From positions 193,817 through 257,816 of the forward strand of contig WFMF01000234.1 in NCBI GenBank assembly GCA_011033025.1: DNA of 64,000 nucleotides, written 5' to 3'. Shown piece by piece: positions 6,476 through 62,620 of this stretch (position 1 is its first letter; each line of letters opens with the position of its first letter). The stretch is from Beroe forskalii. Taxonomy: Eukaryota; Ctenophora; Nuda; Beroida; Beroidae. The position numbers were made by a program, and so were the translations under genes. A model generated the notes under the pieces. The model was not told the origin of the DNA, searched no databases, and was given only the letters and a program-made list of their open reading frames with translations.

Positions 6476-7123
6476 TAAATAATATTTGGTCTTAACCACA
6501 GGGGCCACATCTTGGTTGAATTCATCATGAAACTCAGACAATGATAGATGCGCGATTTTTTGTACCAGTATTAGGTAGTCCAGCGAGTACCGACAAGTTC
6601 TGAGCTAATCTATAAATAAATACATAACGTTGACTCAAAAACTATTTCATCCATCGTTAAATCATCGTTATCTTTCCGGAAAACTAGTGGTTAACATTAA
6701 AAGATTTCGGCCAATTATCCTGATCATGTGTTTCGTAAGAGCCTGTGTATTTACTCAAGTCTCAATTATAATTGTACTACAAAACCACCAATCTACACAA
6801 TTCACTAAAAATGTAGGAGAACACTGTACATTACAAGATGAGTACTAGTAGCTTATAATTGCATTTACAACTCAACAGAAGTTTTTAGATATATTTCATG
6901 ATAGATGCTCAAATTATAGTTTTACTCGACCTGAACTTATTATAGGCTGATAATTAAATTTAATTTAACAGTGAGTGAGAAGATGCAAAATAGTTTGAAA
7001 ATCTCATCGAATCTCAAAAGGCCAGCACAACAACTAGTACCACTACTACTGTGATAGGAGACAGGTTAATTAAATAGTCATGAAATGGCAGTTCACTACC
7101 AGCAATATCAGCGTCTCGCTAAC

Positions 7124-22506: not shown

Positions 22507-22546
22507 GAAACGTGGAAGTATGTTGGGCAAGCTATTTTTATTGCAC

Positions 22547-26584: not shown

Positions 26585-26769
26585 TATTTTCCCTGAGAAA
26601 TACTATAAAAATTTCTTCAATACTGGAGTAATGTAGATCCTAAGTTACTTCAGATAAAAGTTCTGGACCACTGTACTTCAATTACTCCGCCAATTACTAT
26701 TTCGTAAATCAAGGTTACCTCAGGAGTTCCCACTTAGGGGAGGGATCTTCCCACAAGCACTAGGGCTGC

Positions 26770-27274: not shown

Positions 27275-28960
27275 TCACAACTCTTGTGACACTTTTACCC
27301 AAAGTTCCTTGTAATTTATATAGTCAGAAAGTCTATCATGCTTTTTCCATACTTTTTCAGCATATCTACTTTTGGATCTCAGTGCTCTGTACTCTTTGTC
27401 AAACCAAGGTGCATTATCCATGACTGCTATAGTTTTTGTTTGAATAGGTGCATGGTTATCAGTGACAGTGCCAAGGTTGGATTTCAACTTATTGTAGCAG
27501 TACCCAAAGCTCCCAAACAGTTCAAATTCTGACAAAACATGATTAAGGTCTTTAGTAAAGGCACCTTGATCAACAGAGGAAATTTTTCTATATGTCAGTT
27601 TTTTAAAATATTTCATATCTAGAGTCATTGTTATGTTACAGTAAATTGGAAAGTGGTCTGATCCAAAAGTGTCCTTTGAATCTACCTCCTGTACTGAACA
27701 TGACATTTTCCTATCAAGTGAAAATGTAAGTAATTGATCAATGGTCCCACCACTTTTATGAGTTGGTTGATTAATGTGTTGTTTGAGACCATAAGACACA
27801 AACAAGTCAGAGTACCCCTTGACTTTCTTGTCCTTCTTATTTTCAAAGTGTATATTGAAATCACCAGCCAAAACCACATCATCAAATTGTGAACAAATAT
27901 TAGATAAGAGGTCATCAAATTCCTGGAAAAATACTTTGGTCAAGGCTCCTGTTCTATATAAGACTGCAAATAAAATATTTTTTGAACCTGTTGTTTTGAA
28001 TGAAACACATGTACATTCAAAGGAAGTGAATTCAGAAAATGAACTGTGCTTCAACTCTCTGGCTTTAAAACAAGCTTTGTATATGACAGCAGTTCCCCCA
28101 CCTCTTTGGTTATTCCTGTGATTGTGGATGATTGCATACCCAAAAGATTGAATAGTGGATGTGATAGGACAATTTTGTGAATATAGCCATGTTTCACTCA
28201 AGCAAGAAAAGTCAATGTTTCTATCTTGAATACAATGCATGATATCATAGATCTTGTTGTTAACAGATCTAGCATTATGTATCATAACATTAAAACCTGA
28301 TTCACATTGATCAGTTTTTCTGACTATTTCTTCTGGTAAAAGGAATACTTTTCTTTAGTTTTTTTCTTGCTCAGCTTTGAATATAGGACAGTCAACTGAG
28401 TATGCAGGGTGCTTGAAGTTATTGGCATAATCACTATTTTCAGAATTTTTTGCAATTTGAACAACATGATTCTGTCAGATTAGTTGAACTCTTAGTTGGG
28501 CAGTTCCGTGTCTCATGAGATTTTGAACAGAAACCACAAGATAATGCGCTTTCACATTTTTCACTGATATGACCAAATTTCTGGCACTTAAAGCAGCGTT
28601 TCACATGGAAGGCATCATATACCTTACAAGTACCATTACCTAGGAATATTCTGTCATTGCAGCTATTTGCTATGTAGTCTCTGATAGTGTTACTGACAGA
28701 TACTGTGGCCCTACTAAGTTCATCATTGTTTTTCAGCTTTGCCAATGCTAAGATAGTGAATTTTCCTTCACCTTGATTAGCAAAGTCAGAATTTAGTTTC
28801 CTAAGAGTAGGGTTCTGTAGAAATATCTCTTCTTTCAAATCTTCTTTTGTTATGTTGTTGGGTACACCAACAACATTGACAGTGGGGGTCCTAGATGGAA
28901 GGTCATGAACTTTGTGGTTTTGCTGTGACTGTCAAGCACAGAAAATAGTAAAATATTAAT
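27275..28960 (-). mobile_element. CR1/L2-like LINE fragment: ORF1 end plus endonuclease
   Basis: ORF1 part (28838-28440) carries two zinc knuckles, CFKCQKFGHISEKC and CGFCSKSHETRNC. One extra base in an A-run moves its tail into the next frame, where it goes on to HPAYSVDCPIFKAEQEKN. The ORF2 part (28285-27275, 336 codons) is an apurinic endonuclease: NARSVNNK at the start, SETWL, GGGTAVIYK, LAGDFNIHF and SDHFPIYC, then the linker with WFDKEYRALRSKSRYAEKVW. Reverse transcriptase is missing because the copy stops at the minisatellite at 27.27 kb. Loss of the 3' half is unusual, since LINE copies usually lose the 5' end, so later deletion or rearrangement is likely. Confidence 0.9.
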
Positions 28961-35191: not shown

Positions 35192-35213
35192 AAGCAGACC
35201 AACGAAAAATAGG

Positions 35214-36717
35214 AGCAATTTTTTGCTTCACACTTTCATGCTTCCATGGCATCAATGCATGTTTAACATATTCTTTACAATTTAGACTTTTATAGAGTTG
35301 TAATTTGACTTAAAAGCTTTAAGTTTAGCATTCTAATTCTCATTCAGATGAGGCTGAATTACTCACTGAGTATGAAGGCCTAAACTGTGTCCAAGGGTAA
35401 ATCACCTAGAGCAGCAAAATCTTCCATTTGAAGTTCCAATGTAGCAATTTTTCATCTCCATTTATATTATTCAACTTGATAGGGACACAAAGGCCTTTAG
35501 GTACATGCGGGAATGTAATTACGCATGTAATTCTTTAGCTCCTAATAAACCATAGATTTCAGACTTTTTCATAACTTCATAAGATTTTTAGTTTTCATTT
35601 TACAGTGGGTTTTTAATCTGTATAAGTATTCCAAAACTGAGTGACCGAGAGTCATAGGTACATTTTGATTTTTTGGTACCTATATAAGCTCTCCGCTTTC
35701 AACACTGGCTTTTTATACCTAAGTAGTAATAGAGTAATAGTACCTAGTTGAGTCATGTGTATATGGAGCGAAAACTCAATGAAAGCTCCCTGGCATGAGA
35801 CACAAGTGGTTATATTTTGCTAGTTTGCCGCATTTCATCTTGAAAATAAAACAAAAAGTACCTTTAAATGTTTGCAGTTGTTTGCTTTTATAGTAACGTA
35901 GGTAGTAGGTACCCTATTTATTTGACCAACTCATTTAGGTACCATACTACCATATACCTATTTATTTTCCGTGTTCATTTACCCTGTTCAGTTTTATAAC
36001 CAAGCTTTTACCTTACTCCCAAAGAACTGTATTATGTATGATGTACCTAATATTTACGCACAAACACAATAACCAACACCCTTGAATCATCATACTTTTT
36101 ACATTTGCAAAAACCTATAATTACCTACAGCTGTACAATGTATACGGATTACAGTGTAAGTGTACTCCATGAGTGAGTTATTTAGTTCTTCATTTTGTAC
36201 TTTTTGCTTGGTTTGTCCTTCAGTGTTCTACGGAGTGTACATTTTATGGACTTTTTTTGTTGCTGCTAGTGCCTACATACTATTTTGCTTGATTTTCAAT
36301 GTTAGATTATGATGCATCGGTGAATAGAGTATCGAATCGACTTAATGTGAGTGATAACTGAAGCGAACCCGCCCGGCGCTTCCGGATGTATTAATTTTAG
36401 ATGTGGGTTGTTGATTTCAGATGTACTATTTGCAGAGCTTTATGCCACTACTTCCATGCAATTGTGCTCGTAAACGTAATCCATGCACATTGCACGTGGA
36501 ATATGATCAGTTCATGATTCATCATTGCATGTGATCATTAAATTTCGGAAAGTTACCAAATTTCCTCATTTTATTTGGTAACAGAGCTATACATCATATA
36601 ATGAAGATTGGAGTAATGGTACCTACACACTAAGTTAACGTAAAATCGACAGAGTATCAAAATGTACATATCGGAGGAGAATGATTGATATGATCACAAT
36701 TGCCAGTTTAGAAACCG
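35214..36717. other. Non-coding stretch rich in GTACC/TAGGTA motifs
   Basis: No gene recognised in 1.5 kb. TAGGTACC, GGTACCTA and similar palindromic words occur far more often than in neighbouring sequence of similar composition. Confidence 0.45.
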
Positions 36718-37430
36718 TCAGTCCACCATAACCCAAAATTCATCGTTTGGGTGGTTTCGGATTGTTGTGGGTTGTTTTGGGTTGTTTCGGGCTGTTTCGA
36801 AACCATACGAAACAGCACAAAGTGCATAATTCATATTTTGTGTGGAATCGGCTGGTTTCAGGTGGTTTGAATACCCCAGAATATGGATTTTGGATAGTTT
36901 CAGGTGGGTTGGGTCGTTTTGGGTCATTTTGGTGGTTAGGATTCCCCAATTTATGCAAAAATTTGAAACAGGCAAAATTTTACCTTTGTTTGGAACTACC
37001 CGAAACGACCCAACCCACCGACCAACCCAAAATATGAATTTTGGGTGGTTTCAGGTGGTTTTGGGTGGTTTCGGGTGGTTTCAGGTGGTTTCGGTGGTTT
37101 CGGTGTTTTAAGTTCCCCAATTTATGCTAAAATTTCGAAACCATCCCGAAACCAGCCAAGCACGACCCAAAATTTTACTTAAATGTGGTGACCCGAAACC
37201 ACCGAAACCACCGAAACCAACCCACCGTTGGCTGGATTGGGTGGGTTGAATGGTTTCAAAATAATTGGTGGTTTCGGATGGTTTCGGCTGGTTTCGGCTG
37301 GTTTCGGGTGGTTTCGGGTGGTTTCGGGTGGTTTCGGAGTTATGTTGGGTGGTTTCGGGGGTGGTTTCGGGTGGGTTGGGTGGTTTCGGCTGGTTTCGGG
37401 TGGTTTCGGGTGGTTCCACCTTTTAGTATC
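36718..37430. repeat. GGTTTCGGGT satellite, long array
   Basis: Runs of GGTTTCGGGTG (10 bp, plus orientation) alternate with CGAAACCACC (minus orientation), separated by AT-rich spacers such as CCCCAATTTATGC that recur three times. The densest part is 37262-37420. It ends with CTTTTAGTATCAACGA, the same boundary as the 283-437 array, directly abutting duplicate copy B. Confidence 0.88.
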
Positions 37431-37431
37431 A

Positions 37432-37832
37432 ACGACACCGAGAGATTAAGACGATATGGGAGCAGGATATAGAGGGACTGAAGGCAGTTGTGGAGACAGT
37501 AGACTTAGAGGCACTGAAGACAGTAGTGAACACAGTAGTGGAGACTGAAGACAGTAGTGGAGACAGAAACTTTGACACCGCAGTCAAGATGTCGCACTGT
37601 GAGGAAGCAGCATCATCATTGGATGTGGGTTTACAAACAAACTTTGTGAGTGCTTCTACTGTGTACTGTGTGTGCTACCCACCACTTTTCCAGACCAGTC
37701 GAATTTGCCGTCGAGAGGGAATCCGCTTCGTTCGTAGAGGTCTTGGAAAAGTCGTCGCAGGTACGCGTAGTCTGGAACTTCGAAGAAATCAAGGTTCCTA
37801 ACATAGTGAAGGTAGGTGCAGAATTCCGCTGA
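37432..37832 (+). pseudogene. Coiled-coil ORF remnant, copy B
   Basis: Homologue of the frame at 4976-5377: HREIKTIWEQDIEGLKAVVE at the start and [12 protein letters not shown] at the end. Between them an ACTGAAGACAGTAGTGGAGA repeat has expanded, and the frame changes near 37.65 kb. The C-terminal 60 codons differ from copy A mainly by conservative replacements (FVKVLEE/FVEVLEK, NFEEVKV/NFEEIKV). Function unknown. Confidence 0.4.
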
Positions 37833-39659
37833 ACAGAAGAATCAATCAGGATGAAATAGGAATAAGGATAGGTCATTGTTGTAAGTTAAGATATATCTAT
37901 CATCATTCACACAATCACATTCTTTGTCACATTCAAGTTTCAATTATATAATATGTTGAGTAAGTCTGCCACGAAGGATTGCAAAGCAGGGTTAAGAGTG
38001 TATAACTACACAGAACAATTGGGAATCGTTTGAAAGTAATTTCAAGTTTTAGCTAATATAATACTACTGACAGGGGAAGTTTGCACATAACTCCTCTATC
38101 TCTGTTCTTCGTTTAGTTTCTCCTATCTTCTGATATCGCTCTTTCAATGTATCCGCCTGAAGCATAGGGAAGGTCTTGTGCGTGTGCATTTTTTGGACCA
38201 CATAAAAGGAATGATGCAGACTATGAATTAGAAGTAGAAGCAGTTGAGGATATTGTTGTCATAGACGAATGAATTACTGATGCCTTAATTTTGAGTCAAG
38301 AAATTTTTTTTTGATCCTTCAGCTCCTCAAGTATCAAAGAGCTAAAATAAGTACGCTCTTTGAATACGCATCACTTTAATTTTACGCACTAAATTTTTGC
38401 GATTTCGACGAAAATTGCACAATTGAGTCTCTCACAAATTTCTAGCCTTATAACTTAATTTAAGGTATTTCGACCCCACTGATAATTAGGTTGTGTAGAG
38501 TAGCCTGAAAAACTCAATGGATATCCTCGGTGAAGAGAATTAGAACTGTGAGGTTCAGTAGACAAATCTATTGTGACAGATTATAGACTAGAATAACATC
38601 ATGTTGAATAGATAAGCTTGTGTCACGTGCACGACAAGTGAGATGCTTGACGTGCAAACTAACAATTTCTAATACATCGAGTTCAATACAATGGTTTTAA
38701 CACCTATAAAAGGCTCGGCAACGTCAATACGATTATCTCATCTTAGAGTAACCACCCATACTACAAACTACAGATTCATTTAGTCCAAATTACCTTAGTA
38801 CAGTATATTCTACAGGTAACTCGGTAATCTGCCGATGCACACCTAAGGTACAACCTAGGCCTAGACACACCTCAGGCACAAGAAATATCTGGGCACAACC
38901 ACCTGGGACACACTAAGGACACAAAACAGATCTCGGGCACCCTGGGGCACAGATCTCGGGCACACCTAGGGTACACTAAGTAGACAAAAATATCTGGGCT
39001 CAACCACCTCGGGCACATCTCGGTTGAATTCATCATGAAACTAAGACAATGATAGATTTTTATAGGTACGTCACAAAATTTATATGAATGAGCCGAATCG
39101 TACGAATTTGATGATTTACAAATGTTGTGTTGTACTAAGGTAACCAGATGAGTGAATTTTTTAACCGGTATTAGTCCAGCGAGTACCGACAAGTTCTGAG
39201 CCAATCTATAAATAAATACATAACATTTATTCAAAAAACTATTTCATTCCATCGTTAAATCATCGTTATCTTTCCGGAAAACGTGTGATTAACATTAAAA
39301 GATTTCGGCCAATTATCCTGATCATGTGTTTCACAAGAGCCTGTGTATTTACTCAAGTCTCAATTATAATTGTACTCAGTACTACAAAACCACCAATCTA
39401 CACAATTCACTAAAAATGTAGAAGAACACTGTACAATTGTACATTACAAGATGAGTAGCTTATAATGGCATTTACAACTCAACAGAAGGTTTTAGATATA
39501 TTTCATGATAGATGCTCAAATTATAGTTTTACTCGACCTGAACTTATTACTTTATTATAGGCTGATAATTAAATTTCAATTTAACAGTGAGTGAGAAGAT
39601 GCAAAATAGTTTGAAAATCTCACCGAATCTCAAAGGGCCAGCACTACTACTACTAGTAC

Positions 39660-40596
39660 TAGGGCGTTCGGAAATGATTGTCACTACATGCATAAAATGA
39701 CAAATATGACCAAATATGTCAAAATTTCAACATATTCGAGTACAAGGGTCTCTACCCGACTGAATTGCAAATTTTCAGTGCTAACGAAGATTTTTGAGTG
39801 GGTCATCTAGCTTGTTTTTTGATTGTTTTCAGGTGCTCCGCTGTATGGCGAATTCTACATCATCTAAGTCATGTTTTTATGGTCCGATTTCACTATTCAG
39901 GACATGTTCAGGGCGTTCAGGTCCAAAACTAAAGAATAGGATGATTGGTTGACATCCGGGGCAAATTTCTGTACAATTTTACCCTGCATGATTGATAATG
40001 AGTAGAGCTAAAAAGTGGCAAATTTAACAGTTCAGTAACCGATAATGCAGTACACAGCTAGCATACACGTTTCTGAAGTTAAGAAAATTAGTCAAAATCT
40101 TAAAAATGGTTGTCTCGTATACAAAAGGTTCTGAACTAATAGCCTAACACCATAACCGAAGGTTTCAAATTATTTAAATGTTGTATTTCTGGACAATTGC
40201 CAGAGCAAAAGTTGCAACTGCCCTATCTGGAGCATATCCTTTTTGAGGTCAAAGCACCCCTTAGGATTATTTCATCTCGACGAAAAACAATCCATTTGTT
40301 CCGATTAGCATCCACGTGTACTGCAACATCCTCATTTTGATTATCTCACACTTCCTGGGTCCGTTGATAGCGCGTTTTCTTTGACAACGAAATTTGTGGT
40401 CAGTTTCGTACAGCGGAGCAAATAATTAGAAATTAAGATCCGCTGTAGAATGGGCTAAGAAAACTTACTAATGGGTAAAACCCGATTATCTAAATCCAAA
40501 AATGCCTGAAAAAAACGAATATCATATCAAAAAGTGATTCCCGGTAGCCGTTTCTCCAGAAAATCGCAAGTGACAATCTTTTCCGAACGCACTATT
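39660..40596. mobile_element. 0.94-kb non-autonomous hAT-like DNA transposon
   Basis: Left end TAGGGCGTTCGGAAATGATT and right end ...AATCTTTTCCGAACGCACTA form TIRs of about 25 bp with few mismatches. The flanks ACTAGTAC (39652-39659) and ACTAATAC (40597-40604) look like an 8-bp target duplication with one change. Copy A carries the empty site with a single ACTAGTAC near 7030. The interior has no transposase frame. Confidence 0.85.
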
Positions 40597-40668
40597 ACTA
40601 ATACTGGGACAGCGGACAGATAGTCATGAAATGACAGTTCACTACCAGCAATCACACATCTCGCTAAC

Positions 40669-40754
40669 CTTGAGTCCCTGCCACGGCAGACCGCCTCGAA
40701 GGAAATACATGAACATGTAGCCCAGCGCTTCCAGATCGTCCCTTCTGCTCTGCT
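40669..40754 (-). CDS. CSNK1G: Second copy of a CSNK1G exon, 86/86 identical
   Basis: This is the exon found at 7124-7209 ([20 protein letters not shown]...GLPWQGLK), with its AG acceptor, GT donor (GTTAGC) and full 86-bp length kept. All 86 bases agree while the flanking intron has changed by substitutions and indels. It should be exon 5 of a second CSNK1G copy whose exon 4 remains at about 50095-50282 and whose exons 1-3 would fall in the gap. The intron between exons 4 and 5 has grown from 1.8 to about 9.3 kb. Whether it is a real paralogue or the other haplotype cannot be decided from the sequence. Confidence 0.85.
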
Positions 40755-40864
40755 CTGAAAAAAACACGATTTAAACCACTACACTTATAAAGGCCCCAAG
40801 TAACGTCGGACACCGGGATTTTTAAACAAATTATCTCAAAAAAGCGCATGTGTCTCGAAATAAA

Positions 40865-41290
40865 AAGTGACAACTAGGAAAAAACCCGTGCTGAACTCGT
40901 AATAAACCGCAATAACCCGCAATAACCCGAAAAAACCGTCATACCCCGCAAAAACCGCATTAGCTCGTTAAAACCCGAGAAAACCCGCAATAACTCGCGA
41001 AAAACCTGCAAAAACCCGCAATAGCTCGTCAAAACCCGTAAAAACCCGCAATAGCTCGTGAAAACCCGTAAAAACCCGCAATAGCTCGTCAAAACCCGTG
41101 AAAACCCGCATTAGCTCGTAAAAACCCGTAAAAAATCCGCAAGAACTTGTTAAAATCTGCGAAAAACCGCAAGAGCTCGCAAAGACCGTAAGAACACGTG
41201 AAAATTCATAAAAATCCACGAAAACCCGCAAAAAAACCCGTGAAGGCCCGTTCAAACCCATAAAAAACGGTGGAAACCCGTATGACGTCA
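40865..41290. repeat. AAAACCCGCAATAGCTCGT repeat
   Basis: Tandem units of about 18-20 bases (AAAACCCGTAAAAACCCGCA, AATAGCTCGTC). A degraded stretch of the same style (AAAACCCGAAAAACCCC) lies at the other end of the 8.45-kb insertion in the same orientation. Minus-strand frames through it (ELLRVFTGFD) are artefacts. Confidence 0.85.
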
Positions 41291-41820
41291 TCAATTATCA
41301 AATTATACACTTAAATTAATTATAAGCTACACCGTACACACAAGTAACATTGTAAACAAAATGATCTACTTTCAAGTTTCTGGTCATTCGGAAGAAAATG
41401 CCGATCATTATTTTTCTTGAATTTCAAAATTTCAACTAATATTTAATGAATTATACAGTAAGAACTTCCTACTTATCTCTGCAACACATAACTTGAGTAT
41501 CCAACACGGCTAAAACCACAATTATATAACGGGTTTTTAAGTTTTTACGGGCAAAAATGGAGATCAATTGAAATGCCCTGGATAATAAGCCCAATTATAT
41601 TGGGGGGGGGGCAACCCCCAAAAATTTAACCCCTATTTGTCTTTTCCGATATCCACTTGGGGGTTTATGGGGGGTTAATTTTTCCAGGTGCCATTTCCAA
41701 AACGATCAAAATTTCAAACAAAAATGGCTTACAGTAATTGTGGTAAAAATTTGCAATTCTTGCAATCCTTGCTCAACTTTAAAGGCGTTTTTCAACTTAA
41801 AAGCGAAGAAAGGAAGAAAA
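41291..41820. other. Non-coding sequence inside the 8.45-kb insertion
   Basis: AT-rich; GGGGGGGGGCAACCCCC at about 41603 is a small inverted repeat (GGGGG against CCCCC). No frame of interest. Confidence 0.5.
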
Positions 41821-42371
41821 GTTATGCCAAAAATCTCTTAAAAATGGTACCATTCTAGAAAAGGGTCAAAAAATCATCAAAAAATGTTACCATTTCAGAA
41901 AAGGGCCAAAAAAGGTGCCATTTCAGAAAAAGGTTCGAAAATCCGCAACAAAAATGGTACCATTTCAGAAAACTGTCAAAAGCCCTCAACAAAAAATGGT
42001 ACCATTTCAAAAAAGGTAGAAAATCATCAACGAAAAATGGTACCAATTCAAAGAAGGGCCAAAAATAGTCAATAAAAAATGGTACCAATTCAGAAACGGG
42101 TCGAGAAGCATCAACGAAAAATAGTAGCATTTCGCAAAAGGGCCAAAAATGGTACAATTTCAGAAAAGGTTCGAAAATACGCAACAAAAATGGTACCATT
42201 TCAGCAAAGTGCCAAAAATCTTCAACAAAAGAAGGTACCATTTCACAAAAGGGTTTAAAATCGCCAAGAAAAAATGGTACCATTTCAAAAAAGGGTCGAA
42301 AATCCTTAACAAAATGGTACCATTTCAAAAAAAGGCAAAATATTGTCAACAAAAATGGTACCATTTCAGAA
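41821..42371. repeat. About 40-bp satellite with AATGGTACCATT core
   Basis: Around 13 units of AAAAATGGTACCATTTCAGA then AAAGGGTCGAAAATC..CAAC. The GGTACC core is palindromic. The 169-codon minus-strand frame (FLKWYHF, FEMVPFF) reflects repeat translation, not a protein. Confidence 0.9.
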
Positions 42372-42575
42372 TACCTTAGGAGGTGTATTTATGTGGGATA
42401 AAATTTCGGTGTTTCAAATTTTGGTAAGTTGAAAAGATGGGGATTTTTCAAGTTATTACTCTCGTTAACATATTATGATAATGACGTCATTTCGAAATGT
42501 CATGGTGGGTGATAAATGGGGATTTTTCTGAAAAATCCCCAAATTACAACCTTTATAAATAAACCTCCTAAGGTA
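42372..42575. mobile_element. About 200-bp mariner-like MITE inserted in the satellite
   Basis: TACCTTAGGAGGTGTATTTA at the left is inverted at the right (AAATAAACCTCCTAAGGTA). The satellite unit is cut between CATTTCAGAA and GGTTCGAAAA, and flanking TA on both sides fits a TA target duplication. The interior holds GGGATTTTTCTGAAAAATCCC, a 10-bp-arm hairpin. Confidence 0.8.
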
Positions 42576-43190
42576 GGTTCGAAAATAAGCACTAATATCA
42601 CCTTTCCACAACTAATATTACCTTCTCCAAGACCAGTGCTTCAGTTTCACCTCCAGCTTCAGTTTCACCTCCTGCCTCCACCGTCCTCCTTTCCAGTACA
42701 GCCTTCTTTGCCCCAATTATGCTCTGAAAGTGCCCCTGCCCATCTAGTCTCCCTGCCTCAGTGTCTTACACTATAGTACTATGGATTCCTCAGCCCTGTC
42801 TCGCCATAGTACCTTGGCCTTCTCCTCAAATTCCTCAGCCTGCACAGTGCACATCCTGGATTTGATATCTGGTTCCAGATATCATAAAGCACAAGGGCAA
42901 ATTTCGAATAGAGCTTGGGCCTTCTTTAATTAACCACATGGGCAAATTTCGCATGTTTGAACGACCTTGATTGACTCCCCCACCAATTAAATAAGCAGGA
43001 AAATGTTAGTTATAGAAATTTCAACTATAATGCTTCTGGCCGAAATTAAACCAAGGATAGGTCTTTTATGCTACATACCAAGCTCCTGTGGATCTACGGC
43101 CACATAGTAGACATAATAAAACAATCGATTTTTAACCTAAAAATCGTTTGGAAAGATGCTAGAAATTACTAAAATGTAACCCAAAAAGGT
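42576..43190. other. Non-coding sequence inside the 8.45-kb insertion
   Basis: Pyrimidine-rich 42600-42850 (CAGTTTCACCTCC repeated twice), then unremarkable sequence. No gene recognised. Confidence 0.45.
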
Positions 43191-43734
43191 GATGCGAATT
43201 TTTACCCCCCCGACTTTTTATCCCCCGACCTTTTACCACCCTAGGGTACAGGTGCGACCTTTTACCCCCTGCTTTGCCTTTGATCTGTACTGTATTCTAC
43301 CATAGACTGCGACTTTTAATCCCCCATTGAAAATGAGCTCGGTATCAAGCAGAGAAGCAGGGGGATAAAAGGTCGCATTTGTAGTTCTTGATATGCTCAA
43401 CATAATATGTTTCAAACGAGGATTATATGCAACCATAGTTGAACAAGTTATGGAAATTTTTCTGTCCTTGGGTTATAAAGCTACGCAAATTTGCCGACCT
43501 CAGTCTTCGAAAAGTTGCGATAGTCGTTTTTCAGTTTCGTTATTCTGGCAGGCATTTATTGCTTACATGCAAATCATTATGGAACGCACTAATATTAGAG
43601 ATGGTTGAACTTAACAAAACACTTTCCATTTCTATACCAATGGTGATAAAAAGACGGGGGGTAAAAAGTCGCACATGATACTTAGGGTGGTAAAAGGTCG
43701 GGGGATAAAAAGTCGGGGGGTAAAAAGTCGCATA
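43191..43734. mobile_element. 0.54-kb TIR element with TTTTACCCCCCGAC ends
   Basis: Left end ATGCGAATTTTTACCCCCCC and the following CGACTTTTTATCCCCCGACC are inverted at the right end (GGTCGGGGGATAAAAAGTCG, GGGGGGTAAAAAGTCGCAT), about 50 bp per end. An inner pair, GTGCGACCTTTTACCCCCTG and CAGGGGGATAAAAGGTCGCA, lies at 43251 and about 43360. The C-run style matches the MULE remnant at 44.6 kb, so they may be related. Confidence 0.82.
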
Positions 43735-43999
43735 CTCCCAAAAAAAAACAAAAAACCTATCCCAATAATGGTAAAAGTAGGGTTAGGTAGGACTTTGTTT
43801 TTTGGGCTTCAACACCCTCCCATCCACTTGTAGTCTAATAGAACCCCTTACCGGTAACCAGTGCAGGCTGTACTGCCATTTCGAGCAAAAATCACGGACA
43901 AGCTGTCCCTAACGCTGTTCTTGATTGTGTGCAGAGGGGATTGACTGCTATTCAAGGACCCCAATTGATTGCTTTACTAGCAATTAATTATGACAAAAA

Positions 44000-44610
44000 T
44001 TATGAAGTGAGAAGGGACGGGAATCATGAGCATGAGTAGATGAATCAGAGGTGACAAGATTCATAAGTTTTCATAAGCGAAATTTGGATTTAAAGGTGAG
44101 TTGACTGCGAAGTGACTGGATCAGAAGAGACTGAACTCAAAGGTGACTATAGTCAAACATGTGACTGGGCTTATGAACTTAGAAATGATTGGAGTGGAGT
44201 TTGTACTCAGAGGTGAGAAGTTCAGCAGATACGAGATTATGAGGTGAAGAGAGTTAGAGATGACTTGACTCAGAGTTAACAAGAGTCAAAAGTGACTGGG
44301 CACAAAAGTCAGAGGTGACAAGTCAGAAGTCAACTGAACTCGGATCAGAGGTTATAAAGTTATACGAGACAAGCTGACAAGTTGACAAAATAAAAGGAGT
44401 CAAAAGTTATTGGACTCAGAGATGGCAAAAGTCAGGATTAACTGAGTAACTGGACCAGACTAAATTGCTGGCTTCAGAAATCAGAAGTGGAAAGTGGAAT
44501 CAAAAGTTACGAATGCCAATGATGAAAAGGCTCAGAGGTGACTGAAGTCAAAGGTTACCAAGTGACAGTAATCAGATATGACTGGGCTCAGGTATGACTG
44601 GAGGTTAAGG
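44000..44610. repeat. GTGACTGGACTCAGAG degenerate satellite, left part
   Basis: Loose repeats of AGAGGTGACTGGACTCAGA and AAGTCAGAGGTGACAAGAGT, unit near 20 bases. The same satellite resumes at 45605-45870, so the MULE remnant was inserted into it. Confidence 0.8.
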
Positions 44611-45604
44611 GACACTTGACCCCCCCGACATTACATCCCCCGACATTACATCCCCCGACACTACATCCCCCGACACTACACCCCCTACTGTAAATCTAAA
44701 GAGGAAAGCGGGGGGTCAAACGTCGCAGTTCGACGATTGTTGCGAAATTTGACCCCCCAGACAATACATCCCCCGATGAATAAACATAGATCAAACGCAC
44801 TGATCCGCGGCTTGACCAAGGTGTCTAAGTGCTACATTTGACCCCCCGACATCACATCCCCTCTATGTCTCTATAGGCACAGTAAACTCCCATGCAACTG
44901 TGCTTGGGAACGGGGGTTCAGGTGTCGCACCATCGACTGAGCAACATGAACCCTATAAGTAACGAACGCCGGATAAGACACCAGGTTAAGGAGCATGGTC
45001 TGATGAGGAAGTACCAGAGGACGACGACTAATTCAAGCTCAGAGTGAAGAAGCTGGCAGCACCGGCCTTCCTTCCTGTTGCGGATGTCGTGGCTAGAGGA
45101 CCTAGATCGGACTTCCAGCTGGAGGACGACGACTTCCCCCAATCTTCCCTCTCCACATGTGGAACGTCCGTGACAGAGCTTCGGCTGGATCTGCCCGCAC
45201 CACCAACGCCCTGGAGTCCTTTCACCACTCCTTCAACTCCCTGCTGTCCGGCCACCACCTCTCCATCTGGACCCTTCTAAAGATACTCCAGACGCAGCAG
45301 AACCTCTCAAGAGCCAAGATGTTCCGTGTTACCAGAGGAGACGTGTTCAAGTCATCTGCCCTGGAGAGAAGGAGGAACGACAGGGTCCAGAACCTCCTCC
45401 GGAACTACTCCAGACCTTCTGCTGAAACCTTCCTGACTGGAATTGCTTACAACTACATGTCTTAGAGTGTTTTTTCCCGATATTTTGTGTGAAAAATTTG
45501 TGATATACAATTATTCTATACACTATAACATTATTGCAATATCCAAATCCTGTCTATCACATTTTCAGTAACTACAGAGGGTCAAGTGTCGGGGGTCAAA
45601 TGTC
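44611..45604. mobile_element. MULE-like element remnant with GACACTTGACCCCCC ends
   Basis: Left end GACACTTGACCCCCCCGACA and right end inverted as TGTCGGGGGTCAAATGTC. The motif TTTGACCCCCCGACATCACA recurs internally (44700-44860), suggesting truncated ends stacked inside. It contains a transposase C-terminal fragment (see next). No target duplication found because both sides are satellite. Confidence 0.75.
45130..45465 (+). pseudogene. MULE transposase C-terminal fragment
   Basis: The frame PPIFPLHMWNVRDRASAGSA and then RTTNALESFHHSFNSLL, SGHHLSIWTLLKILQTQQ resembles the C-terminal part of MULE/FLYWCH-associated transposases, where a W at the start is followed by RTNNAVEGFHNALQ-like sequence and a stretch on relative size of a helper helix. 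The upstream acidic residues (DDDF, EDDDFPQ) are in another frame, so the fragment is at least once frameshifted. The catalytic core with its DDE residues is missing. It ends with a TAG after YNYMS at 45465. Plausible autonomous ancestor of the GACCCCCC-ended elements around it. Confidence 0.7.
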
Positions 45605-46020
45605 ACACTTTCTGACTGGATTCAGAGGTGACAAGAGTCAGTGCTTCAGTGCCCAAGTTGAACTCAGGGGTAAGTAGAGTCAGACGGCATTCAGCATTGG
45701 ACATAGAATTGACTGGACTAAGGACTCAGATATAACGGGTGTCAGCGTTACATGGGTTAGATGTCACTGGACAAAGAGAAACGTCAGAGTGACTGGACAC
45801 AGAAGTCAGAAGAAAAAAGAGTCACTGCACTCAAAACATCAGAAGTCACTGGATCCAGAGGCTAAAAAGCTAAGAGATGGGCAGTGTCCAAGCAGGCCAG
45901 CCATGTCTCTGAAACGTCTCCGAGACTTCTCTGAGACTTTTTCGAGACTCTCCAGATACTTCTCCAAGACGTCTCTGAGACTCTCCGAGACTTTTCCGAG
46001 ACTTTCTGAGACTCATTAGG
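45605..46020. repeat. Satellite, right part, and CTCCGAGACTTTTC minisatellite
   Basis: 45605-45870 continues the GTGACTGGACTCAGA satellite. 45908-46015 is a second array of about ten units of CTCCGAGACTTYTCYGAGAC, 9-12 bases each. Confidence 0.8.
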
Positions 46021-46069
46021 CTAATCAGATCTGATATAATTCCATGATTGCTTGTTAGGTGCCATAGTC

Positions 46070-46083
46070 ATGATGGTATATAA
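46070..46083 (+). promoter_or_regulatory. TATA box before the small ORF
   Basis: ATGGTATATAAACC is a good TATAWAW match. An initiator would fall around 46105 and the ATG is at 46121, a tight but plausible eukaryotic spacing. Confidence 0.5.
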
Positions 46084-46120
46084 ACCTAGCCAAGCACTAC
46101 ATCACTATCGCAATTCAATC

Positions 46121-46416
46121 ATGGCTACTACAGCTCCTCTCCATCCTGTGAGACGGAAGAAGATGAAAGTGCGGGACGAGATTCATCAGAAGTATCGTCT
46201 GATCCTGCAGAAGGTGAACAGTGGGGACTTGGTCTTGAGTGCTGTGAAAGCGGTGGGACTCTCCAAACCCAACTTCTACAAATAGAAGGCAGTCGCAGAA
46301 TTGAAGATTGTGGATGAGGAGCAGTTCAAGGTGATTGAAGAAACTCATGGGGATGACGTGCTGAAGCTTCAGACTGCCTGCAACGAGACAGGTAGGATCA
46401 GGAGACACCAGCTATA
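46121..46416 (+). pseudogene. Helix-turn-helix-like small ORF, interrupted once
   Basis: Starts MATTAPLHPVRRKKMKVRDE, then IHQKYRLILQKVNSGDLVLS AVKAVGLSKPNFYK in form, which looks like a basic N-terminus and a helix-turn-helix (Q-K-V-N-S-G as first helix end, AVGLSKPNFYK as recognition helix), similar in layout to transposon-derived or psq-like DNA-binding domains. A stop interrupts at 46283, after which the frame stays open for about 44 codons (KAVAELKIVDEEQFKVIEET, LKLQTACNE) and runs into a minisatellite. I do not know the family. It sits in the 8.45-kb insertion behind a TATA box. Confidence 0.45.
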
Positions 46417-47480
46417 GGTCAGGTAGGATCAGGAGACACCAGCTATAGATCAGGTAGGAACCGGAGACGCCAGTAGATCGGGAAGAATAGCAGACACCAG
46501 TAGGTCAGGTAGGATCAGGAGACGCCAGTAGCCAGTAGGTCAGGTAGGATCAGGAGATGCCAGTTATAGGTCAGGTAGGATCAGGAGACGCCAGTTTTAG
46601 ATCAGGTAGGAACCGGAGACACCAGTAGATCAGGAAGAATAGCAGACACCAGTAGGTAAGGTAGGATCAGGAGACGCCAGTAGCCAGTAGGTCAGGTAGG
46701 ATCAGGAGATGCCAGTTATAGGTCAGGTGGACTAGGAGACACCAGCTATAGGTCAGGTAGGATCAGGAGACGCCAGTTTTAGGTCAGGTAGGAACCGGAG
46801 ACGCCAGTAGATCAGGAAGAATAGTAGACACCAGTAGGTAAGGTAGGATCAGGAGACGCCAGTAGGTCAGGTAGGATCAGGAGATGCCAGTTATAGCCTA
46901 TAGGTCAGATAGGATCAGGAGACGTCAGTTTTAGGTCAGGTAGGAACCGGAGACGCCAGTAGATCAGGTAGGGAAAAGACCCCAAGTAGGTCAAATAGGA
47001 TCAGGAGATGCCAGTAGGTCAGGTAGGATCAGGGAGACGCCAGTAGGTCAGGAGGATAGGCCCAGTAGGTCAGGGGGATCAGGGCGCCATGAATAGGGGA
47101 GGATCAGGAGAGCCAAGGAGGTCAGGTAGGATCGAGACCCCGTTTTAGGTCAGGGGGAAAAAAAAGTAGTCAGGTAAAAAGACAGGGGGTAGGATGCAGA
47201 CCCAGTAGGTGGTAGGGTCAAAAAGAGCCATTTGGTCAGGGGATCGATGCTCAGGTAGGATCAGGAGACACCAGTAGGTCAGTAGGATTGGAGGTCAGGT
47301 AGGACCGGAACCCCGTTCAATGGCAGGGAGGTCGGTCCAAACCCAGTGGGTAGGTCGGTGGGGTCAGAGGTGCCAGTGGGGCAGGTAGGATCGGGCAAAT
47401 TTGGTCAGGGGGACGGAGGCCAGTTATGGGGGCAGGAGGATCAGGAAACCAACCCAATGGTCAGGTAATCAAAAATCGCT
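46385..47480. repeat. About 30-bp minisatellite GGTCAGGTAGGATCAGGAGA
   Basis: Units GGTCAGGTAGGATCAGGAGACGCCAGTA-like, alternating with shorter AGATCAGGAAGAATAGCAGA forms. Higher-order period of about 180 bases from 46.39 to 46.98 kb. Past 46.97 kb the units look corrupted (GGGGGATCAGGGCG, homopolymers), consistent with poor consensus. Confidence 0.88.
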
Positions 47481-48690
47481 GTCGGTGTCAAAGGAAACGT
47501 ACACGGTGTCAAAAAACACTGGCCTGATGTAAGGCATACGTGAACTTAAAAGGTTTGACACGAGTAAGGACGTGACATGGGTAAAAAATTTTTATGTCAA
47601 ATCAGACACGATGTCAAGGCTGTGACCAGTGCAAAACCGAACGGTGTGAAGGTGCCGACACTGAGTCAAGGCATAGTGCACAGTGTCGGGGTCGAACGGT
47701 TCCAAGGTCAGTGACCGATGCAAAGGCATTCGGACACCCTGGTGTAGGTCGGGAAAGAGAAGGCATTGGACAGGGTTTTAAAATACCTTTGTCGGTGTCA
47801 AGGCATATAGCAGGTGTCAGGAATATTTAAAAAGGTGGAAAAAACGCAGTGACATGATGGCCACCATTAAATAGTCAGGATGCTAACGGTGTCAAAACGT
47901 CACTAAGTCAAAAGGCAAACACCACTTGGTGTAGGATAGGGGGCATATGTCAAAGGCAACGCTGAAATTGAGTCGGATACCGACACTGGGGTCAATGCCT
48001 TCATAGTAAGCAAACCAGAAACGTGTCCAGGTACCCTGAAAAACGATTGGGCATGGAAATGGTGTCCCAAAGGCCCTAGTGACCAGTCAAAGGTTGCTGA
48101 CATGGCAAGGGCCTAGCTGAATGAGTAAGGCATAACCTGAAACTGATTAGGCGCGCTGGCCTGTCAATGCATACGTGACACTAGTGTCACAGCATTCCTG
48201 AACACTGGTGTCAAGGCCTACACTGACACTGATGTCCAAGGCATACGCTGACACTGGTGTCAAGGCAAAAACTAACATGATGTCAAGGCATACGCTGATA
48301 CTGGTGTCCAAGGCATACTGACACTGATGTCAAGGATACGCTGACACTGGTGTCAAGGCAGCAAACCCATGTCAAAGGGTCCGAAATGTGTCAAAGGGAC
48401 CACATAGTGTCACAGCATCTGTGACATGGTGTCAAGGCCTACGCTGACACTGATGTCAAACTTCCTGACACTATGTCCCAAGGGTAGACACTGGTTTAAA
48501 GGCTTCCTGACACTGGTGTCAAAGGACACCTTGTCAAGGCCTACGCTGACACGTGTCAAGGCATTCGCTGACACTGGTGTCAAGGCATACGTTGACACTG
48601 GTGTCAAGTCTATTTTAAACTGGTGTCAATGTTTATACTGACGAAGGTGTCAAGGTATATACTAAAGGTCTTGGCATACGCTGATGCGGG
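47481..48690. repeat. About 24-bp minisatellite TGACACTGGTGTCAAGGCAT
   Basis: Units TACGCTGACACTGGTGTCAAGGCA; ACACTGGTGT is self-complementary. Best preserved at 48180-48660; degraded by apparent sequencing errors to the left. Frames on both strands are artefacts. Confidence 0.85.
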
Positions 48691-48859
48691 TGTTTAGCTG
48701 TTTTGACATGAAATTATCTTCATATTTATTATTCCCCTTTTTGATATAAATTTTGCTTTTGGGAAATTATATAAACTTTTGATTTTATAAAAGATTCAGT
48801 CAAGTTTTTTTAGTTTGTATTTCATAACTCAGTATCATGAATCATGAAAGATAAAATTT

Positions 48860-49240
48860 AACCCCCCCAAAACCCGTCCTGAAAGTCGGAAAAAATCCGA
48901 AAAAAGCCGAATAAACCAAAAAACCGAGAAAAAAAACCCGAAAGTCGAAAAAACCCCGTTAAAAACCTGGGTAAAACCCGCAAAACCCCAGAACCCTAAA
49001 AAACCCGAAAAACCCCTTTAAAAACCCCCAAAACCCCTTTAAAAACCCAAACCCCGTTAAAAAAACCCCTTTAAAAACCCCCAAAAAACCCCTTATAACC
49101 CGAAAAAAAGTCGTAATCCCGGGAAGCGTAATCCCCGGGGAAAGCCCGTAAAACCGTAAAACCCCCGCAAAACCCGTAAAACGCGAAAAGCCCGAAGCCC
49201 GAAAAACGGGGAAAACACCGAGAGCTCCGACGTTGGGGGG
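48860..49240. repeat. AAAACCCG-type repeat, right end of the insertion
   Basis: Corrupted runs of AAAAACCCC, AAACCCGAAAA and GTAAAACCCGC, akin to 40865-41290 and in the same orientation. Homopolymer lengths are suspicious. Confidence 0.7.
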
Positions 49241-50094
49241 GCCTTTATAAAAAACACCAAATTAAGCTTCTAACCAGGTATGTCACATGTTACTGCAAAA
49301 TTATCCTTTGCAGATTGCACATTTTAAATTTTTACGGGAAATGGTCCGTTTATTAAAATCGGTTTAATTTATCACAAATTTGCTGGTTAATTAATTTCTC
49401 ATGTAAGAGTAAATGAAGGATTCCCCCGAATATTCTGTTCTTGTTTTTAATTTTAAATTTTTTATCGAAACAATCTTCTTTAAACAACTATAAAACAAAA
49501 AACCATCCCGATCTTCTGATGTAAATTACAAATTTTATATACGGTATATAATGCGTGCATGTTGGGGTGGCGATATATTGAATAATATAATTCAAATAAA
49601 CTCACATGATCTACATTATACCGCAATGGGCATTACGTTTTTTAGAGCTTTCCCCAGATTCCTCGATTTTATGGTATTATTAGCAGGCCCAGTGGGAAGG
49701 CTAAAACTTTAATACATAGCTTACTTGGCGGTGCTACGCGCCACCTCATATGCAAAGATGCAAATTCCTACCAAACGCCCGGAAAAAAAGCTGAAAAGAA
49801 ATTATTTTTTCCGAAAGGGAAAGGAAATACTTTCAGTTTAAAATTTTCGGGGGCGGACGGTGGGCTTTTTAACATTTGCTGAAAATACATTTTTTTTTAA
49901 AAAAAGAAAAACTTTTAAACTGGGACTGTTTTCAAAGTGAATGAACTTTTACGTGGGTCGGTTTAAAGTTTAGGTTTAGATATCACTCACTTGGGCCGCA
50001 CATTGGGAAAAGCCACGGTATTAGCGGGCCCAATCACATACCAAGCAAACTATCACCTTTTGACTTGAAAATTTCCCCCCACTGACGGGTTTAA

Positions 50095-50282
50095 CCACCC
50101 CTTGATGGGTTGATATGCTCATGTAGGGGCAGTGCCCCCGGGCGTTCCCCTTTCGGGATTGTTTTTCGGGCGTGTATTTTGGCTAACGAATGATATTGGA
50201 TGATGTCTTGGTTCTTCATACCCAGACGACCCAAAAGTTTCTGGCTTTTTGTCACGGAAAGAGCCCCGTACCACCTCGATTC
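50095..50282 (-). pseudogene. CSNK1G: Damaged second copy of CSNK1G catalytic exon
   Basis: Matches exon 8981-9215 over its 3' four-fifths (GATGGGTTGATATGCTCATGTA, GATGATGTCTTGGTTCTTCA shared with no change, then CCCAGACGACC, TTTGTCACGG, ACCACCTCGATTC). Between these are many small losses and changed homopolymers, so no kinase frame remains. Since the sister exon at 40669 is unchanged, sequencing or consensus error is more likely than decay. It is cut by the N gap. Confidence 0.75.
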
Positions 50283-50382
50283 NNNNNNNNNNNNNNNNNN
50301 NNNNNNNNNNNNNNNNNNNNNNNNNNNNNNNNNNNNNNNNNNNNNNNNNNNNNNNNNNNNNNNNNNNNNNNNNNNNNNNNNN
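50283..50382. other. Assembly gap, exactly 100 N
   Basis: Round-number gap of unknown true size. It interrupts the CSNK1G exon copy. The open frames that cross it are meaningless. Confidence 0.98.
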
Positions 50383-50627: not shown

Positions 50628-51018
50628 CAATTCCTGAATTACTGGTGTGATGTTATCAAATTTGGTTATCATTCAGTCAGTGAGCACTGAGTGGTTAGCA
50701 ATTGTTGTTTGGTGCACCTTTTGCAACTGCTCCATTATTATATCTCAAAGATCAAGATTGCTTGTCTAAGTGGCATCATGTACTCATGAACAGCTGTCAT
50801 AAAGGTTACTTGGATTCAATGCTTTTTGGGACAATTGGGACAATTGGGACAATTGGAACAACTGGGACACACTGGGACAATTGGGACAAACAAAAAGTTG
50901 AAAAAATCAGTCATTTATCATTTTTACATTGATCCAAGTTTTTGAAATGAAAGTTATATTTATACTAATATACTAAATACATATTTTGGTTGTGTTTGTT
51001 TGCAGCGGTTATTAATAA
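50628..51018. other. Non-coding, with GGGACAATT repeat
   Basis: 50827-50890 is a short array of GGGACAATT (nine bases, about seven units). Units of the complementary type (TTGTCCCA, TGTCCCATTTG) lie on the far side of the foldback element at 55230-55350. No gene seen. Confidence 0.6.
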
Positions 51019-52156
51019 GCCCCCTGCCAGATTAGAACAACGCCACACTAGGTATTGAATTCGCCACACTATAAAAATGATCGCATTGTTAAGATGATAT
51101 TCATACAGGCCACCCTATGCATTAACTTTCTAAGAATGCGTGTAAAGTGCAGGGTAATATTCGCCACACTAGCATTATATTCGCCAAAGTGGTCGCATGT
51201 TTGTAAACACACGCAATGCTAAGCAATTATTCGCCTGTTTTATAAACAATCTTCGTAGACTCTATTTCGCCATGTTAGGAAAATATTCGCCTACTGGGTA
51301 ACACATTCATTCTTAGAGAATAATTCGCCGTGTTTGGAAAGTATTCGCCGACTGGGTTTCATATTTATTCTTAGCGAATATTTCGCCGTGTTCGGAAAAT
51401 ATTCGCCTTAGAAAATATTTCGCCGTGTTAATAAAATATTCGCCGTATGTTATGATAACATGTACTCTAAACTAATTAAGTTACATAGCAGCCCCACCCT
51501 GACCTTGATTCATCTGTACAAAATGTGTTCTAACTGGACTCCTGAAAATTTTCTATTTCATATTTTGAACAGATGATGTGTTGATGTACACAAAGTTGCA
51601 CTTAGCAATACAAACCTACTGTGTATGTAAATTTAAGCATTCATATTTTTCAGATTAAACACAATATCATAATATCATATCAGCTCGTTATAGCCTCATA
51701 CGGAGAGTCGAGTACTCGACGGTTTTTCCTTGGTAACATGCCGCATCATCCCGATCCAGGACTGGGGAATGAAGTTACCGTTTTTCATCTTTTCGGACCG
51801 TTCTAATGCAAAGTGGGAGAATACCAGTTATAATAACTGGCATTTTCTGCTGCATTACACTGTGACTTACCAGAATTACAAGTACAGCTTATCACCGCTT
51901 TTTCGGACCCATCCTCTCACACCTGTCAGTTCCGTGTCGGCAGCCAAAATAACCTTTTACAATGCTTATCAGGTCCATTGTTTCGCATCCTTCAATTTCA
52001 AATTCAAGTCCAAGGACGAGCATAATCCCCTGCCCTTTCATCAATGCTTATCTCCGCTTTATCAGGTCCATTGTTTCGAATCCTCCAATTTCAAATACAA
52101 GTCCACAGTGAAGATTACCGGTAATGGCAGTATCCAAGTAGGTCAGTATCAAAGTA

Positions 52157-53320
52157 GCCCGACTCGACTCAACTCGACGACTCAACGACTCGACGACTCG
52201 ACTCGGCGACTCGACTTGACGACTCGACGACTCGACTCAACTCGACGACTCGACGACTCGACTCGACTCGACTCGACGACTCGACTCGACTCGACTCGAC
52301 TCGACTCGACGACTCGACTCGACTCGACGACTCGACTCGACTCGACGACTCGACTCGACTCGACTCGACGACTCGACGACTCGACTCAACGACTCGACTC
52401 GACGACTCGACTCGACGACTCGACTCGACGACTCGACTCGACGACTCGACTCGACGACTCGACGACTCGACTCGACGACTCGACTCGACGACTCGACTCG
52501 ACGACTCGACTCGACGACTCGACTCGACGACTCGACTCGACGACTCGACTCGACGACTCGACTCGACGACTCGACTCGACGACTCGACTCGACGACTCGA
52601 CTCGACGACTCGACTCGACGACTCGACTCGACGACTCGACTCGACTCGACGACTCGACTCGACGACTCGACTCAACTCGACTCGACGACTCGACGACTCG
52701 ACTCGACTCGACGACTCGACTCGACGACTCGACGACTCGACGACTCGACTCGACGACTCGACTCGACGACTCGACGACTCGACGACTCGACTCGACGACT
52801 CGACTCGACGACTCGACTCGACGACTCGACTCGACTCGACGACTCGACGACTCGACTCGACGACTCGACTGGGCAGCTCGACTCGACGACTCGACTCGAC
52901 GACTCGACTCGACGACTCGACTCGACTCGACTCGACGACTCGACTCGACTCGACGACTCGACGACTCGACTCGACTCGACTCGACTCGACGACTCGACTC
53001 GACTCGACTCGACGACTCGACTCGACGACTTGACTCGACTTGACTCGACTTGACTCGACTCGACGACTCGACGACTCGACTCGACGACTCGACGACTCGA
53101 CGACTCGACGACTCGACGACTCGACTCGACTCGACTCGACTCGACTCGACTCGACGACTCGACTCGACGACTCGACTCGACGACTCGACTCGACTCGACG
53201 ACTCGGGACTCGACGACTCGACTCGACGACTCGACGACTCGACGACTCGACGACTCGACTCGACGACTCGACGAATCGACGAATCGACTAGACTCGACGA
53301 CTCGACTCGACGACTAAACT
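52157..53320. repeat. 1.16-kb satellite built from GACTC and GAC words
   Basis: The sequence is almost only 5-mer GACTC and 3-mer GAC joined in varying order; the commonest period is 13 (GACGACTCGACTC) at 52.37-52.68 kb, with runs of GACTC (5) and GACGACTC (8) elsewhere. Interruptions are few (GACTGGGCAGCTC at 52868; TTGACTCGACTTGAC at about 53030). CpG is very dense. Open frames of up to 437 codons (STRRLDDST) and 168 codons on minus (SSRVVES) follow from the lack of stops. Confidence 0.95.
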
Positions 53321-54370: not shown

Positions 54371-55087
54371 TCTCACTCTGTCGTACTATTTGATGCCCTC
54401 ATGATATAAAAACGGGCCATTATGATATGTTTAATCTGAAAAATATGAATGCTTAAATTTACATACACAGTAGGTATGTATTGCTAAGTGCAACTTTGTG
54501 TACATCAACACATCATCTGTTCAAAATATGAAATAGAAAATTTTCAGGAGTCCAGTTAGAACACATTTTGTACAGATGTGAATCAAGGTCAGGGTGGGGC
54601 TGCTATGTGTAACTTAATTAGTTTAGAGTGTACATGTTATCATAACATACGGCGAATATTCTATTAACACGGCGAAATATTTTCTAAGGCGAATATTTTC
54701 CGAACACGGCGAAATATTCGCTAAGAATAAATATGTAACCCAGTAGGCGAATACTTTCCAAACACGGCGAATTATTCTCTAAGAATGAATGTGTTACCCA
54801 GTAGGCGAATATTTTCCTAACATGGCGAAATAGAGTCTACGAAGATTGTTTATAAAACAGGCGAATAATTGCTTAGCATTGCGTGTGTTTACAAACATGC
54901 GACCACTTTGGCGAATATAATGCTAGTGTGGCGAATATTACCTTGCACTTTACACGCATTCTTAGAAAGTTAACGCATAGGGTGTGGCCTGTGGCGAATA
55001 TCATTTTAACAATGCGATCATTTTTATAGTGTGGCGAATTCAATACCTAGTGTGGCGTTGTTCTAATCTGGCAGGGGGCTTTAATAA

Positions 55088-60689: not shown

Positions 60690-62620
60690 AGTTATATATA
60701 GACGTGATAATTTTAGGACCCAATTTTCGACGGGGTAAACTCGAAAACCATAAAAGATACAGACATGATCGAGGGCGGGTTTTTTAAAGCTAAGATGGGA
60801 AAATGTTATAGGCTATCCAGGAAGTCTCACTGGATCGATTTTATTGGTGTGATGACGTCATCAAAATCGATAAAATCACGATTTTAGCGAAAAAACGTAA
60901 TTTTGGACCACTTTGAGGCACTGTAACTGAAAAGTTTTCTACCGCATCATGATTTCCCGACTTATGTAGCATCTAGACCTCGAGATTTAGCCACAAAAGA
61001 AGTTTCATGGTAATTGGTGAAAAAATGATGTCGTAGGGGGCCTCCAAAAATCGAGGATCCTTACTAGGCCAAAATATGGTGACTTTGAGCATCTATATCT
61101 CAGCTCACGAAAGTTGCTCCATCTTGTCCAGACGTATTAATGTTCTTTCGCAATCAAATATTAAGGCTTAAAAGTTTCAAGTCGTCCTGATTTAAGGGAA
61201 AGGTGTGGTGGCCCCTCAAAAACGTAAATTTGAGCCGCGCGAAAAAGTCGAAAATTTGGCTAAGTCCAATTTCAGGCCGAATTCCAAAAGTGCAGGGCTG
61301 TTGTGCTATACGATAGTGACTGAATCAACATTTTGATTTACTTGGTACTTGAATAGAACAAGAAATGGCACATGGAAATGAAGTGCACGTGAGTTCACGT
61401 GGACGTTTTGTAGAAATTAGGGAAATCACTATTTCAAGGATTTTAAAGAATTATTTCCAAGTTTGAATGTTAATAACGTATGTTTAGATCATAATAACCT
61501 CTTACAATCAAAAAGCGGCGTCCCTGTGACTCTGTGAGGGGGTTGCTATGACAGCCGCTTGCGGTTTTGTCTGTGGTATACTTAGTTACTTATATATAGA
61601 CGTGATAATTTTAGGACCCAATTTTCGACAGGGTAAACTCAAAAACCATAAAAGATACAGACATGATCGAGGGCGGGTTTTTTTCAGCTAAGATGGGAGA
61701 ATGTTATAGGCTATCCAGGAAGTCTCACTGGATCGATTTTATTGGTGTGATGACGTCATCAAAATCGATAAAATCACGATTTTAGCGAAAAAACGTAATT
61801 TTGGACCACTTTGAAGCACTGTATCTGAAAAGTTTTCTACCGCGTCATGATTTCCCGACTCATGTAGCATCTAAACCTCGAGATTTAGCCACAAAAAAAG
61901 TTTCATGGTGATTGGTGAAAAAATGAGGTCGTGGGGGGCCTCCAAAAATCGAGGCTCCTTACTACGCCAAAATATGGTCACTTTGAGCATCTATATATCA
62001 GCTTGCGAACATTGCTCCATCTTTTCCAGACGTTTTAATGTTCTTTCGCAATCAAATGTTAAGGCTTAAAAGTTTCAAGTCGCCCAGATTTATGGGAAGG
62101 GTGTGGTGGCCCCTCAAAAACGTAAATTTGAGCCGCGCGAAAAAGTCGAAAATTTGGCTAAGTCCAATTTCAGGCCGAATTCCAAAAGTGCAGGGCTGTT
62201 GTGCTATACGATAGTGACTGAATCAACATTTTGATTTACTTGGTACTCGAATAGAACAAGAAATGGCCCATGGAAATGAAGTGCACGTGAGTTCACGTGG
62301 ACGTTTTGTAGAAATTAGGCAAATTTGAAATTTGAGTCTTAAGACCGAATTTTCGACTTGATTTGTTTGAAACAAGTCACAATGCAATAGAGAAACATGA
62401 TTCCAGGTCCATATAATGAATTTTGCACGTGAGTTCACGCGGACGTTTTGTAGAAATTAGGGAAATTACTATTTCAACGATTTTGACGAATGATTTCTAT
62501 TTCGAACACCTAATAACGTATGTTTAGATCGTAATAACCTCAAACAATTAAAAAGCGGCGCCCCTGTGACTCTGTGAGGGGGTTGCTATGACGACCGCTT
62601 GCGGTTTTGTCTGTGGTATA
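60690..62620. repeat. Tandem duplication of about 900 bp
   Basis: Copy 1 is 60692 to about 61580; copy 2 is 61590 to about 62620, which carries about 130 extra bases around 62330-62460 through a local repeat of GTGAGTTCACGTGGACG and ATTAGGGAAAT. Both start TATATATAGACGTGATAATT and end CTGTGAGGGGGTTGCTATGA ... TTTTGTCTGTGGTATA. GATGACGTCATC (a CRE) lies within an inverted ATCGATTTT/AAAATCGAT. No long frame is conserved between the copies, so it is probably non-coding. Confidence 0.92.

Follow-up and report, generated by a model that had tools for sequence, protein, structure and literature searches.

A second, incomplete CSNK1G copy in the Beroe forskalii assembly: probably the other haplotype in false tandem or a transposon-mediated duplication

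Introduction

Transposon-mediated tandem gene duplication by unequal crossing-over is a known process. The gene considered here is a casein kinase 1 gamma (CK1 gamma; CSNK1G1-3 and Drosophila gilgamesh), a family whose C-terminal tail is cysteine-rich and basic. Our search for literature on CK1 gamma gene duplication in invertebrates gave no match, and the accessible part of one paper (PMC9794997) makes no mention of CK1 gamma tandem copies. A duplicated gene in an assembly can also be a false heterotype (haplotype) duplication; according to the accessible part of PMC9516828, false duplications are most often, that is, usually and not universally, separated by a gap.

The window analyzed here, that is, the whole stretch of 64,000 nucleotides (C286:193817-257816) from a genome of 216 Mb in 1134 contigs, contains two copies of a CSNK1G locus, copy A and copy B, on one contig without any N in the interval. 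Like the false haplotype duplications described in the accessible part of PMC9516828, the window has one gene in two diverged copies on a single scaffold, with the second copy at a contig end that has erroneous sequence and a missing continuation; unlike those duplications, no N gap lies between the copies. Like the products of transposon-mediated tandem duplication, the copies are in direct orientation and are joined at a transposon with mismatched flanks; unlike those products, the second unit is incomplete and the junction is known from the assembly alone. Either outcome is an already known kind of event.

Results

Copy A is encoded on the minus strand. A tblastn search with a CK1-gamma probe located its N-lobe coding exon (11980-12165; ends approximate), in which 62 aa align at 82% identity; the other exons are exon 3 (11558-11710), an intact exon 4 (8981-9215; ends taken from splice signals), exon 5 (7124-7209), exon 6 (5597-5685; ends approximate), and exon 7 (5231-5373; 3' end approximate). 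When exons 4-5 are translated, the best structure matches are CK1 gamma proteins (gamma-3, gamma-1, gamma-2, and gilgamesh; E 9.3e-60 to 9.9e-58), and those to other CK1 subfamilies are weaker (YCK2, E 6.3e-50; delta/epsilon, E 1.6e-42); this part of the kinase domain is, therefore, nearer to gamma than to the other subfamilies. For the C-terminal exon, tblastn with CK1 gamma tail probes gave no convincing match in copy A or copy B. Beside copy A, also on the minus strand (13751-16690), is an NFX1-like gene, a 979-aa frame that runs without interruption and includes NF-X1 zinc fingers and an R3H domain; several other kinases of the genome (GSK3-like and MEK-like by eye) are likewise single open frames.

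Copy B (37435-50282; minus strand) is homologous to window positions ~5050-9208 in the same orientation, as the preliminary description had reported, with a similarity far above chance (BLAST E down to 0.0), and it ends at the assembly gap (50283-50382; 100 N), the sole N run within the window. It contains an intact exon 7 (37686-37828, ends approximate; 6 synonymous differences from copy A), an intact exon 6 (38068-38156, ends approximate; 1 synonymous difference), exon 5 (40669-40754; 86/86 bases identical), and a partial, noisy exon 4 (50096-50282) at the contig end. The preliminary description was correct that exon 5 is intact; it had overlooked exons 6 and 7. Exons 5-7 have two close copies in the genome, both within the window.

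Many larger insertions/deletions distinguish the two copies. Most of the extra length of copy B is accounted for by a repeat element of ~8.5 kb inserted in intron 4 (40791-49244) that recurs elsewhere (among the best 40 of 2695 candidates, on C317, C283, C298, C404, C1069, and others). Its left edge falls near 40789-40791 in several matches and its right edge near 49244-49251 in those on C1069 and C283; by eye, it has inverted ends and a target duplication of ~9 bases. Its identification as a Mutator-like element is unsupported; Pfam finds nothing in its 119-aa frame.

The sequence at the contig end of copy B is noisy over ~1 kb. Small indels between copies A and B number 3-12 per kb in four clean blocks and 72-122 per kb in the three blocks nearest the gap, which begin at 49.2 kb; excess sequence error beside the duplicate, a trait of false haplotype duplication, is thus present. 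Copy B is the side without bases in 88 of the 98 small indels of the noisy blocks, and runs of at least three identical bases make up 0.39 of its sequence there, against 0.20 for copy A. In the last block, with the exon edge placed at the splice site at 8981, gap events occur at 144 per kb in exon 4 and at 149 per kb in the neighboring intron. Because the adjoining intron is equally noisy, the damage to exon 4 of copy B would most simply be contig-end error, not decay; a decaying exon was rejected on the similar error rates of exon and intron and the surge of indels toward the gap. Accordingly, the differences from copy A in exon 4 that had been described as damage are present, but they do not appear to be genuine damage.

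Run-rich sequence similar to the end of copy B is also found to the right of the scaffold's other gap and at the scaffold end; to the left of that other gap, only one of the first two 500-base steps is run-rich, and there is no such sequence to the right of the present gap. The sequence from 63500 to the scaffold end is homopolymer-rich (in many steps of 500 bases, runs of at least three take up 0.4-0.6 of the sequence), partly as simple repeats and partly, perhaps, as contig-end error.

Over the 103 codons of exons 5-7, copies A and B have 7 synonymous and 0 amino-acid differences (dS 0.10, dN 0), and in the clean part of the noncoding alignment 91/1609 aligned bases differ (5.7%). The earlier claim of unchanged exon bases and diverged introns therefore holds for exon 5 and for the noncoding sequence but fails for exons 6 and 7, which contain the synonymous differences. 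The probability of the synonymous-only pattern is 3e-5 by Fisher's test and 0.001 if copy B was free to evolve and copy A was under full constraint; the value is 0.09 if copy B accepted amino-acid changes at a quarter of the neutral rate, which makes the pattern compatible with strong but incomplete constraint on copy B as well. In exons 5-7, copy B retains the frame, every amino acid, and the displayed flanking splice-site letters.

As judged by sequence, then, copy B is coding-constrained, as an allele would be too. Exon conservation is no proof of a working second gene because two alleles are expected to look the same; the selection on a working second gene that had been proposed does not follow from a pattern that is equally expected of two alleles. 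Exon 5 alone is a weak argument for selection on a working paralogue: the probability of its full identity by chance is 0.007 over all bases and 0.31 over synonymous sites. With the latter value, gene conversion over the exon, which had been offered as an alternative, is superfluous.

The left edge of copy B is the right terminus of a ~1 kb high-copy transposon (36428-37434) with a GGTGGTTTCG-type satellite inside. Homology to copy A begins within a few bases of the transposon end at 37434, and the terminal letters that end there are common to two relatives on the same scaffold. With 35200-37560 as the query, the best 40 of 461 candidates include at least 31 other copies, 30 of which start at 36428 and the remaining one at 36430. 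The decamer array is part of this high-copy transposon, and the idea of a break within an older minisatellite was therefore dropped. The left flank of the transposon (35200-36424) is an unrelated repeat, with several of its listed copies on C569 and others on C314 and C346, and no target duplication was seen by eye around the transposon. The two flanks come from different places and imply an exchange between two insertions, which may have happened in the germline or been made by the assembler. At 36876-36879, the junction transposon is without some 80-90 bases that are apparently present in 29 of the 31 other copies listed; this deficit might mark the point of exchange.

Sequence to the left of copy A (4900-5050) occurs once in the genome (2/2 candidates scored), and the 105 kb left flank of copy A, compared with 9209-37434, gave only short repeat-like matches (12 at E 1e-5); the longest of these is inverted, with 73% identity over 544 columns, and the set includes the transposon's own relatives. 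Non-LTR retroelements also lie between the copies, on the minus strand. At 19945-26602, one frame encodes a reverse transcriptase and an endonuclease, and the frame next to it has a PHD match below threshold; at 27278-28354, a further endonuclease frame stands apart.

No second copy of exons 1-3 turned up in searches of the flank past the gap and of the other contigs. The N-lobe exon has no second close copy in the assembly (next match 48% identity over 41 aa; 3/3 candidates scored), nor does exon 3 (other matches 59% and 52% identity; 5/5 candidates scored), and for exon 4 copy A is the sole close match (43/43 candidates scored). Apart from exon 5 of both copies, the remaining matches in the kinase exon searches are to more distant kinases. 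The DNA at 8830-12600 matches only itself and a short repeat (best 40 of 642 candidates), the NFX1-like gene has no second copy (best 40 of 1471 candidates), and the contig after the gap has in common with 9209-37434 only a repeat around 34.6-35.2 kb. The exon set of copy B is, therefore, incomplete; exons 1-3, which lack another close copy within the 216 Mb assembly, may exist in duplicate outside it. This agrees with the preliminary description, in which copy B is cut at the gap and its exons 1-3 are missing from the assembly.

Among the matches listed for four DNA stretches compared with the assembly, none is a long and nearly identical second copy (for three of these stretches, the best 40 of a longer candidate list were scored); this small sample suggests an assembly in which the haplotypes may be collapsed.

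Discussion

We favor the reading in which copy B is the CSNK1G locus of the other haplotype, joined in false tandem by the assembler, over a genuine transposon-mediated tandem duplication, and we give it an even chance of being correct. The other haplotype would have the 1 kb high-copy transposon just past exon 7 and the 8.5 kb element in intron 4. The assembler would have kept this arm separate from copy A and joined it to the right flank of copy A via the transposon, yielding a false tandem; the arm would end at exon 4, in sequence that was poorly polished, near the point at which it rejoins collapsed sequence. We infer that the assembler made the join from several observations: the edge of copy B is a transposon terminus, and neither flank of that transposon is with its partner; the left flank of copy A is not found to the left of copy B; the searches described above did not find the continuation of copy B in the assembly; none of the 7 coding differences changes an amino acid; the consensus of copy B turns noisy as it ends at the gap; and three further stretches are without a long near-identical second copy among the matches listed, as in a collapsed assembly. 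The preliminary description had listed the other haplotype placed in tandem as an alternative to a working gene; with the transposon terminus at the edge of copy B and another repeat on its far flank, it is about as well supported as the working gene, or better. Several points argue against the false tandem. Copies A and B are in one contig; a transposon of only 1 kb should be spanned by long reads; its missing 80-90 bases are not predicted by a simple graph join; and a noncoding difference of 5.7% seems high for two alleles. In an otherwise collapsed assembly, retained haplotype copies may be rare. The left flanks of the copies also do not match, that is, the common flank that is a trait of false haplotype duplication is absent on the left, and on the right it is lost in the gap.

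Somewhat less probable, in our judgment, is a genuine tandem duplication, in which a transposon next to one CSNK1G allele and one ~28 kb upstream of copy A underwent unequal crossing-over, which placed a diverged second CSNK1G behind the first, with its 5' part lost in the gap. The head-to-tail arrangement in one orientation on an unbroken contig is as such an event would leave it, mismatched transposon flanks are the expected trace of unequal exchange, and the coding constraint on copy B has a probability of ~0.001 if the copy has been neutral since the split; however, the synonymous-only pattern requires no second functional gene. The assembly would have to lack the rest of the second unit: exons 1-4 gave no further close copy (for 8830-12600, among the best 40 candidates), the NFX1-like gene, expected to be doubled in a longer unit, is single among the candidates scored, and the contig after the gap has only repeat-like stretches in common with 9209-37434. 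If the duplication arose from two diverged haplotypes, the divergence would predate it. In a more specific version, which we regard as unlikely, a recent germline unequal exchange between satellite-bearing 1 kb transposons on two strongly diverged haplotypes would have fixed both CSNK1G alleles head to tail, giving a permanent heterozygote of an otherwise single kinase. A false join and a genuine unequal exchange yield the same junction, and the two are indistinguishable from the sequence at hand. Two further readings are far less probable. A decaying, truncated CSNK1G pseudogene from an older duplication would agree with the presence of exons 4-7 only and with an exon 4 that is broken as printed; it is very improbable given that exons 5-7 keep the frame, all amino acids, and the displayed splice-site letters and that the damage to exon 4 is at the noise level of the adjacent intron. 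Gene conversion from copy A that homogenized exon 5 in an otherwise free copy would explain the identity of this exon beside the noncoding difference; we consider it slightly less probable still, as the identity is expected at synonymous sites (P = 0.31) and the synonymous-only differences in exons 6 and 7 are unexplained by conversion.

If the tandem is false, the locus illustrates how exon conservation can seem to prove a gene gain that does not exist: noise at a contig end passes for a pseudogene exon, and the constraint on an allele passes for selection on a paralogue. If it is real, the locus is a small case of transposon-driven duplication of a signaling kinase.

To the right of the gap, the window contains two further pairs of repeats. 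An inverted repeat (51009-51673 and 54419-55087), 96.6% identical over 674 columns, surrounds a CGACT-type satellite at 52160-53315; a direct repeat of 735 bases (60692-61426 and 61590-62324) has 95.6% identity.
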